A stretch of DNA of 12,441 nucleotides, from assembly GCA_019420045.1 (NCBI GenBank), contig JAHZHY010000245.1:1-12441 (forward strand), in the 5' to 3' direction. Position 1 is the stretch's first letter; each line of letters begins with the position of its first letter. This document shows positions 11,367-12,441 of the stretch, piece after piece. A program made the position numbers and the translations under genes. Source of the DNA: Clostridiales bacterium. Its GTDB lineage: Bacteria; Bacillota; Clostridia; Oscillospirales; Butyricicoccaceae. The notes under the pieces were generated by a model. The model saw only the letters and a list, made by a program, of their open reading frames with translations. It did not search any database and had not been told where the DNA came from.

Positions 11367-12011
11367 ATGAATCACAAAAAATCCACCATACGCCTTTGCG
11401 CTTTGGGCCTTTCGGCTGTGATGCTGCTGGGGCTGTTCGGCTGCAATAAGCAGGAAGAGCCTTCCAAGGCGGAAGAAAAGGTGCAGCAGACGGAAAACAC
11501 CAAAGATACCCCGGACAACACAGAAAAGCAGGAAGAAACTCCCCTGCCCGATGTGACCCAGCCGCTGAGCGAAGAGGAATATCTGACCGTTTGCCAGCAC
11601 TATTATGACGAGCTGATGCTGGCCAGCAACGAGGCCTCCCTCAAGCTGGACGAAGCCATGAGTGCTTCTGCTGAGACTGAGGAAGAAAAGAAAGCCCAGC
11701 AGAACAAAATCGATGTGGCGATGGGTCTGATCAGCAATATGCGGCCCATGTACGAGCGTTTTGCCGAACTGCAGGCGCCGGAAAGTTATGCGGAAGCCCA
11801 TGAGCTGGTGAAAACCGGGGCCACGGCCTCCAGCGAAGTGCTGCGGCTGACGGTGGAAATCGCCGAGGCCGCCAAAAAGGAGAACGGTGCTGCGGAAGCT
11901 CTGGTGCTCCAGGCGGAGATGGAGGAATATACCTCCGATGCCCAGAATTTCTCCAAGGGTTTGGAGATGGTGCTGGGCGATGTGGTGGGCACCGGCACCA
12001 GCAACGACTAA
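11367..12011 (+). CDS. Lipoprotein of unknown function
   Basis: I do not recognise the family. The 214-residue product has a lipoprotein signal peptide: a basic start, then LCALGLSAVMLLGLFGC with the lipid-bearing Cys26. A charged, low-complexity linker (about 27-65, rich in Glu, Lys, Gln, Thr) follows. The rest (about 68-200) is Ala/Glu/Leu-rich and looks wholly alpha-helical, with heptad-like stretches such as ASLKLDEAMSASAETEEEKKAQQ, consistent with a small helical bundle outside the membrane. ATG at 11367 has AGGAGG at 11353-11358; a longer frame runs back into the preceding gene and is not real. It is monocistronic, with its own promoter (11295-11323) and terminator (12063-12092). Confidence 0.88.
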   Translation: MNHKKSTIRLCALGLSAVMLLGLFGCNKQEEPSKAEEKVQQTENTKDTPDNTEKQEETPLPDVTQPLSEEEYLTVCQHYYDELMLASNEASLKLDEAMSASAETEEEKKAQQNKIDVAMGLISNMRPMYERFAELQAPESYAEAHELVKTGATASSEVLRLTVEIAEAAKKENGAAEALVLQAEMEEYTSDAQNFSKGLEMVLGDVVGTGTSND

Positions 12012-12062
12012 GCGGTCCGGTGGCCGGACGGCCATACTTTCTTGGCCTGAGTGGACACAACC

Positions 12063-12092
12063 AATCCCCCCTTACAACAAGGGGGGATTTTT
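12063..12092 (+). terminator. Terminator of the lipoprotein gene
   Basis: An 11-bp stem (12063-12073 with 12079-12089) containing six G-C pairs, loop ACAAC, running into five T residues. It is a textbook intrinsic terminator. Confidence 0.93.
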
Positions 12093-12185
12093 CATTCTGG
12101 ACAGTGCACACAACCGGCCTGGGTGCTGTGATTGGGTGCAGGAGCACCGCATGGGTGCAGCGTCACGCTGCCCGGGCACATGCCC

Positions 12186-12215
12186 TTGACACAAAGGGAA
12201 ACTTCGCAGTATAAT
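12186..12215 (+). promoter_or_regulatory. Consensus sigma-A promoter of the small RNA
   Basis: A perfect TTGACA (12186-12191), an 18-base spacer, and a perfect TATAAT (12210-12215). Both boxes match consensus fully. No open reading frame with a ribosome binding site follows, so a non-coding product is expected. Confidence 0.85.
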
Positions 12216-12221
12216 AAAGAC

Positions 12222-12315
12222 AGAAAAGGGCGCTGCCGGTAAGTCGGTTAGTCCCCCTGTCAGTTACGAAGAAGTAACCGCGTCAGTTGGGCCTGGGGCG
12301 GTTACTTCTTTTTTT
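12222..12315 (+). ncRNA. Putative small RNA of about 94 nt
   Basis: Predicted from the promoter (start near 12222) and a terminator ending at 12315. No ATG/GTG/TTG frame of useful length with a binding site is seen. The RNA can form the 13-bp terminator stem (12269-12281 with 12298-12310) or, exclusively, a smaller hairpin GTTAC-GAAGAA-GTAAC (12263-12278). GTCAGTT occurs twice (12259-12265 and 12282-12288). The ending AAGAAGTAACCGC ... GCGGTTACTTCTT reminds me of the antitoxin/terminator region of holin-like type I toxin loci in Firmicutes, where AAGAAGTAA encodes the toxin's Lys-Lys-stop. No toxin gene is present here. That resemblance is from memory and untested. Confidence 0.62.
12269..12315 (+). 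terminator. Terminator of the small RNA
   Basis: A perfect 13-bp stem (12269-12281 with 12298-12310) and a 16-base loop, with seven T residues from 12309. The large loop is unusual for a plain terminator and leaves GGGCCTGGG free to pair with the upstream CCCCC (12253-12257). Confidence 0.85.
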
Positions 12316-12395
12316 GCAGCGTGACGCTGCACCCATACTGCGCTGCCGCGCTGAGCAACAGAACCAGGGCTGGTTGTGTGCAACCTGGCAAAGAA

Positions 12396-12441
12396 GCCTC
12401 CCTTGTGCAAAGGGAGGTGGCGGCGAATGCCGCCGGTGGGA
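12396..12441. repeat. Palindromic intergenic repeat, cut by window edge
   Basis: Two tandem hairpins: CCTCCCTT/AAGGGAGG (12397-12404 with 12410-12417) and GGCGGC/GCCGCC around GAAT (12419-12424 with 12429-12434), then the start of a further GGTGGGA. From memory, repeats of this GCCTCCCTT...AAGGGAGGTGGC form are common between genes in Ruminococcaceae. The copy number in this genome cannot be seen from the window. Confidence 0.6.

Follow-up and report, generated by a model that had tools for sequence, protein, structure and literature searches.

The described systems closest to the locus analysed here are the Fst/par toxin–antitoxin loci (par of pAD1). In the portions of the literature available to us, these are described as convergent genes whose overlapping RNAs have a hairpin in common, which specify a short hydrophobic peptide with a charged tail and a short antisense RNA, and which occur in copies both on chromosomes and on mobile elements. 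The family of loci described below is like them in these respects. In Fst/par, direct repeats in the DNA (DRa and DRb) make the two RNAs complementary and cover the start site, according to the consulted sections of PMC7472228. The convergent type I pairs of C. difficile (CD2517.1-RCd8 and others) were compared by description, as given in the accessible part of PMC6563280; their toxins have 50-53 residues, and it is by this description only that we set them apart.

The window, by which we mean the whole 12,441-nt stretch of DNA that was analysed, carries near its right end a core (12184-12315) that is very probably a homologue of type I antitoxins. We consider it likely that this core represents what is left of a type I pair, the antitoxin gene, after loss of the toxin, and probable, too, that the antitoxin is an orphan in the window's genome.

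A sequence-only reading of this DNA had described a promoter, a short RNA and a terminator between inverted arms, and on re-measurement its geometry was confirmed. The two arms (Table 1) are 67 nt long each, 78% complementary and 144 nt apart, and pair perfectly at their outer 11 and inner 21 bases; the 278-nt arm-to-arm stretch has a predicted fold of -158.2 kcal/mol (z -9.7), matched by 0 of 200 shuffles. The promoter (12186-12215), which had been called perfect, indeed holds 12 of 12 consensus bases in the arrangement TTGACA-18 nt-TATAAT, and the region 11900-12441 contains 2 promoter-like sites, compared with 0.1 in shuffles. The proposed short RNA and terminator also stand as sequence predictions: a strong hairpin (stem 12269-12286/12293-12310) is followed by a T run, and for the 100-nt RNA the predicted fold reaches -46.4 kcal/mol (z -5.35), with none of 200 shuffles as low. 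A simple terminator scan did not return the 12269-12310 hairpin. The right arm starts where the T run of the terminator ends, and the window stops 126 bp 3' of the antitoxin RNA. Upstream of the core lie a lipoprotein gene (stop at 12011) and a spacer rich in repeats. An Rfam search of the window gave no match at gathering score.

Table 1. Features of the probable antitoxin locus in the window
Feature	Position	Strand	Remark
-35 box TTGACA of the antitoxin promoter	12186..12191	+	identical in L001
-10 box TATAAT, 18 nt from the -35 box	12210..12215	+	identical in L001
Putative antitoxin RNA (RNAII-like), about 95-100 nt, start placed from the -10 box	12216..12315	+	
5' stem-loop GGGCGCTGCCGG...CGGTTAGTCCCCC, leader motif	12228..12257	+	present, same-sense, in the family's toxin mRNAs
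Terminator hairpin (AAGAAGTAACCGC...GCGGTTACTT) and T run	12269..12315	+	in relatives, toxin stop codon of the opposite strand lies inside
Toxin-frame remnant K-K-K-stop, last codons only	12302..12313	-	identified by comparison with the minus-strand frame that ends at 12358 in L001
Right arm, a dispersed-repeat copy	12316..12382	+	occupies the place of the toxin gene body in L001
Left arm, an oppositely oriented variant copy of the repeat that forms the right arm	12105..12171	-	
Part of another repeat, overlapping the outer end of the right arm	12365..12441	+	

Relatives of the locus were sought through the upstream nicotinate phosphoribosyltransferase gene, and 80 loci were kept. Among these, the 278 bp were matched only by L001, a genome labelled Intestinimonas butyriciproducens An565, whose adjoining DNA is 91% identical to the window. 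Core positions 12184-12313 align to L001 12240-12369 with 94% identity over 131 bp, and the L001 core lies directly 3' of the same lipoprotein gene. The 76 nt from the -35 box through the 5' stem-loop (12184-12259) are identical in both; in the adjoining 3.5 kb, 0 of 3422 windows of 76 nt are identical and the longest identical run is 57. The terminators of the window and of the L001 antitoxin, counted on the alignment, differ at 1 of 45 bases. This conservation would fit either continued function or a recent loss of the toxin. The sequence-only reading had also offered a regulatory RNA locus, and in this it was right, since the promoter–RNA–terminator unit is real and is kept in relatives.

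The flanks of the core in L001 are a single truncated repeat in the other orientation on the left and, on the right, a convergent toxin gene of 34 codons encoding a hydrophobic peptide. A second core copy, 86% identical, follows 5.4 kb further on. Both copies face convergent short hydrophobic frames (MTVVTYVTLSDLLTFCLVIIGVISLVIQAGNKKK and MVMVTYSDLIQIGILTVAIISLFFQVNNKKK), whose stop codons sit in the terminator stem of the RNA on the opposite strand. The window retains the antitoxin promoter, 5' stem-loop and terminator intact, and its toxin frame is cut at the last codons by the repeat; no toxin gene stands beside the antitoxin, and up to 12441 K-K-K-stop alone precedes the repeat. Rfam searches of the L001 locus yielded sub-threshold hits only (BsrG, 11.8 bits against a required 55). 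G002, the other member of the genus, has a different repeat at this site and no such RNA in the 644 bp of contig that follow the lipoprotein gene; a DNA search of its genome with the L001 pair found no match, and the covariance model R1 described below has two matches elsewhere in that genome. The post-lipoprotein spacer of the other genus member (L153:1-640) carries a tandem-like arrangement of a different repeat of ~60 bp (GTCCGG..GGCCGGACGGCCATAACGGGTGCCTAT...).

When 87 genomes of the taxonomic family were searched with the core by plain DNA comparison, 18 of them yielded matches, at 25 places in all. An alignment of 24 RNAs including that of the window (A1) gave a two-hairpin structure, from which the covariance model R1 was built. 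Two of its members (L112 and L115) failed the script and were added by eye, and L130 contributed two RNAs. Three places were omitted: L126, with a promoter-like match only; L125, where the script found no promoter; and L128, with a diverged terminator. The places in L125 and L128 were later matched by R1. R1 has hits in 57 of those 87 genomes at E 1e-3, 71 of 295 genomes in an order sample at E 1e-6 and 14 of 398 in a phylum sample at E 1e-8, all E-values being rough; because these cut-offs differ, the order and phylum rates are not directly comparable. In the window it matches 12216-12314 with 87.1 bits, the window being one of the 24 training sequences. For the following analyses we studied the best-scoring 99 entries of a longer match list, 23 of which are training sequences. 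In an alignment of 102 matches fitted to the model (A2), both-side changes occur in 10 of 17 base pairs, with 117 such cells compared with a shuffled mean of 40. Eight of these 10 pairs belong to the terminator helix, in whose stem the end of the toxin frame is also encoded; support is weaker for the 5' stem-loop, at 2 pairs and 2 cells. On sequence grounds, the family antitoxin is predicted to be a structured RNA that has a promoter and a terminator of its own. We did not recognise this RNA family in the literature searched, which lay mostly outside subscription journals and included the consulted parts of PMC7472228, PMC6563280, PMC10903887 and PMC12548467.

The small hydrophobic gene overlapped by a convergent RNA gene, the layout expected of a type I pair, is widespread in the RNA family. 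A script that looked for convergent frames 18-60 codons long which include a hydrophobic segment (KD15 of at least 1.5) and end near the terminator was satisfied at 85 of the 99 best matches, and at 80 of 99 the stop codon lay at one fixed offset; at random positions of the same loci, 465 of 4000 passed the frame test and 5 of 4000 had the fixed offset. The five hits (of 85) at other offsets include some that look frame-shifted or decayed. The 80 regular peptides have 20-39 residues and invariably end in K or R, and their genes start with ATG (73), TTG (5) or GTG (2). Several toxin classes, which by eye appear mutually unrelated, sit on this RNA scaffold, for example MVTYSELF...KKK, MEYLIMLVVILVLIERIL..., MDYQAMILLLIVATGYIIAIKKK, MKLFRFFVC...TINAK and MFMEQI...IKTIKK. 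Only the second L001 toxin passes the cut-off of the Pfam family Hol_Tox (PF16935), and narrowly (24.2 bits; cut-off 23.3); the first L001 toxin scores 15 and one other class 18.5, and none of nine other toxin peptides reached this or any other Pfam cut-off. Hol_Tox, a putative holin-like toxin, is a protein family only, and most toxin classes beside the RNA have no match to it. Judged by title, none of the papers naming Hol_Tox concerns an RNA antitoxin; they mention it once each, except PMC11357604, which does so more often. The Fst family was not among the families listed for the toxin peptides tested, and the nearest type I toxin model, PepG1, fell well short of its cut-off (E 0.05 and 0.07).

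The 14 of 99 matches that gave no script hit fall into several states. Three are cut by contig ends (L238, L247, L285), two have a toxin recognisable by eye (L211, L277) and three keep a truncated toxin (L216 at 14777, L250, L262). At two, a second antitoxin copy follows (L222 at 27730, L258 at 13030), and four face unrelated sequence (L217 at 38104, L251, L253, L267). By this breakdown, in part judged by eye, 6 of 99 antitoxins are without a toxin of their own and 3 more have remnants, so that toxin-less antitoxins are a recurrent minority state. In the two double arrangements (L222:856-952 and L258:701-800), an antitoxin RNA gene is immediately followed by the second antitoxin gene, and a toxin accompanies only the latter. 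Tandem arrays were also observed at L221, L223, L228 and L259, where two to four antitoxin genes, most with toxins, lie within ~2 kb; in L223, two toxins have the same altered end in common.

Viral contigs were searched as well. An exact 36-base pattern from the core matched none of them, and a looser terminator pattern found 23 contigs. Each of the 23 has toxin sequence beside the pattern, recognised by script in 20 and by eye in three: in L166 and L174 it lies close to where the fetched stretch ends, and in L169 the frame is shifted. The 23 contigs may be pieces of prophages. At seven loci (L155, L161, L164, L168, L169, L171, L175), R1 also has a weak match on the opposite strand (E 2e-5 to 9e-4), which overlaps the antitoxin match and the toxin side; such matches are expected if both RNAs have a leader–insert–terminator layout.

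Against the Fst/par loci, as far as the sources consulted describe them, differences emerged. The 5' leaders of the two RNAs are same-sense copies here (inverted in the DNA), and the toxin stop codon lies within the terminator stem. When the antitoxin 5' segment was compared with the 130 nt upstream in the toxin mRNA in 80 regular pairs, the same-sense score averaged 23.0, the complementary score 12.6 and shuffles 12.3; the same-sense score was higher in 78 of 80 pairs and the complementary score in 1. Direct repeats with complementary 5' regions of the Fst/par kind are lacking in these 80 pairs. Given the same-sense leaders, the two RNAs together resemble an imperfect palindrome with the terminator at its centre. 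The hairpin is present in both, with a long T run on the antitoxin side only; for the toxin mRNA it is a putative terminator. As to what the common leader does, 5' protection or a common processing site is our guess. The 5' part of the antitoxin showed no overall specificity for the start region of its own toxin: predicted cognate pairing exceeded the non-cognate mean in 45 of 80 pairs and shuffles in 50 of 80, and as a general rule such specific pairing is unsupported. For the L001 pair, predicted pairing was strong (-28.8 kcal/mol, non-cognate mean -21.1 kcal/mol).

The sequence-only reading had favoured a non-autonomous mobile element with the inverted arms as its ends and the RNA as its cargo, an explanation to which the equal length of the arms and the strong fold lend some appeal, and which we now regard as very improbable. 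Across 322 kb of the L001 genome (five contigs, chosen because they contain hits or the homologous site), sequence resembling the arms was found at 109 places, mostly in partial form, and 11 of the 109 cover at least 61 of 67 bases. The 67-bp edge is merely where the resemblance between the window's two copies ends; other copies run past it. The 15 innermost bases, GCAGCGTGACGCTGC, form a near-palindrome that is frequent among copies of the repeat. Although open frames of at least 200 codons on any strand cover 80% of bases, only 31 of 109 places lie inside them, so the repeat is mainly intergenic. Close neighbours have the same direction in 33 of 49 pairs, and the '-+' arrangement seen in the window is rare (3 of 49). 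At the orthologous place in L001, the core is present without the arm pair; the position is conserved and the arms are not, which speaks against mobility, in one relative only. The search for further copies that this idea called for found the 278-bp unit nowhere as a unit in the L001 genome (86 matches; 40 of 101 candidates scored), and no homologue was found at the DNA level in phage or plasmid records. Nor is there a duplication of 2-12 bp at the bases adjoining the two outer arm edges, or a direct repeat of at least 12 bases near the arms. The features of a MITE or other mobile element, a same-ended unit at several sites, a target duplication and an empty site, were not found. The arms are unrelated filler. 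They are like REP/BIME-like intergenic repeats in being short, palindrome-bearing, mosaic and mostly between genes; REP/BIME-like repeats have another sequence and another host. The partial repeat at 12365-12441 is 82% identical to L001 17097-17173 and 79% to 17341-17417. In L001:17029-17573, just before the second toxin–antitoxin copy, repeat blocks lie ~250 bp apart and comprise three copies of one stretch and two of the stretch like window 12365-12441.

Two further explanations concern the fate of the toxin. Repeats might have been inserted between its last codons and a body that lies beyond 12441, leaving it displaced and not lost. The toxin body, leader and promoter of L001 occupy some 200-250 bp past the terminator and the window shows only 126 bp, which match repeats; because the window stops there, such a body could lie further on. 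Even so, its frame would have lost contact with both its stop codon and the antitoxin overlap, and we consider this reading unlikely. Very improbable is a substitute toxin supplied by the repeat. The earlier statement that no protein is encoded was nearly right, but a repeat-derived frame of 29 codons with a TTG start (12391-12302, minus strand) runs from the right arm into the K-K-K-stop. It is in phase with the old stop codon and has a KD15 of 1.65, and because of it the window passes the loose toxin test, which 465 of 4000 random positions also pass. Its KD15 lies under the lowest of the 80 regular toxins (1.83-3.18), only 5 of which use TTG; it matches no Pfam or NCBIfam family, and the toxin-side leader motif is absent from the 126 bp (score 12; shuffled mean 12.3).

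The explanation that we favour is thus an antitoxin gene bereft of its toxin. In intact pairs, two convergent promoters would produce an mRNA for a hydrophobic peptide of 20-39 residues ending in K or R and, from the second promoter, an antisense RNA of ~92-107 nt, both transcripts being predicted from the layout. They would overlap in the hairpin that serves as terminator of the antisense RNA and contains the toxin stop codon. By analogy with par/Fst-type systems, the RNAs would meet through complementary terminator loops, and their meeting would block toxin translation or trigger decay. At the locus in the window, the toxin gene would probably have been removed through turnover of dispersed repeats. 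The RNA is probably still made. With its terminator 1 of 45 bases off that of the L001 antitoxin, silencing of related toxins in trans is conceivable; that the window RNA is active in this way we regard as a tentative suggestion, somewhat doubtful on present evidence.

For the individual locus, the finding probably means ordinary decay of a toxin–antitoxin pair. A wider reading, which we put forward as speculative and rather unlikely, is that an unnamed RNA antitoxin family of Clostridia, present in genomes and viral contigs, forms a fixed scaffold on which unrelated membrane peptides are exchanged while their stop codon stays within the terminator of the RNA, with toxin-less copies serving as trans-acting immunity RNAs against incoming phage-borne pairs; in the same speculative reading, control would differ from that of Fst/par, because toxin mRNA and antitoxin carry a same-sense 5' leader. 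The idea of anti-addiction for chromosomal toxin–antitoxin genes is already in print, in the part of PMC12548467 consulted, and such a role for the window RNA would be an extension of it.

What appeared to be a small-RNA transposon has therefore become a lead on a widespread RNA antitoxin family that has no Rfam match. Toxin peptides can be found with its covariance model, and of those sampled for testing the majority have no Pfam match. In their same-sense leaders the pairs differ clearly, and in a way open to testing, from the mechanism described for Fst/par, and the recurrent toxin-less copies offer a handle on whether orphan antitoxin RNAs may protect against phage-borne pairs.
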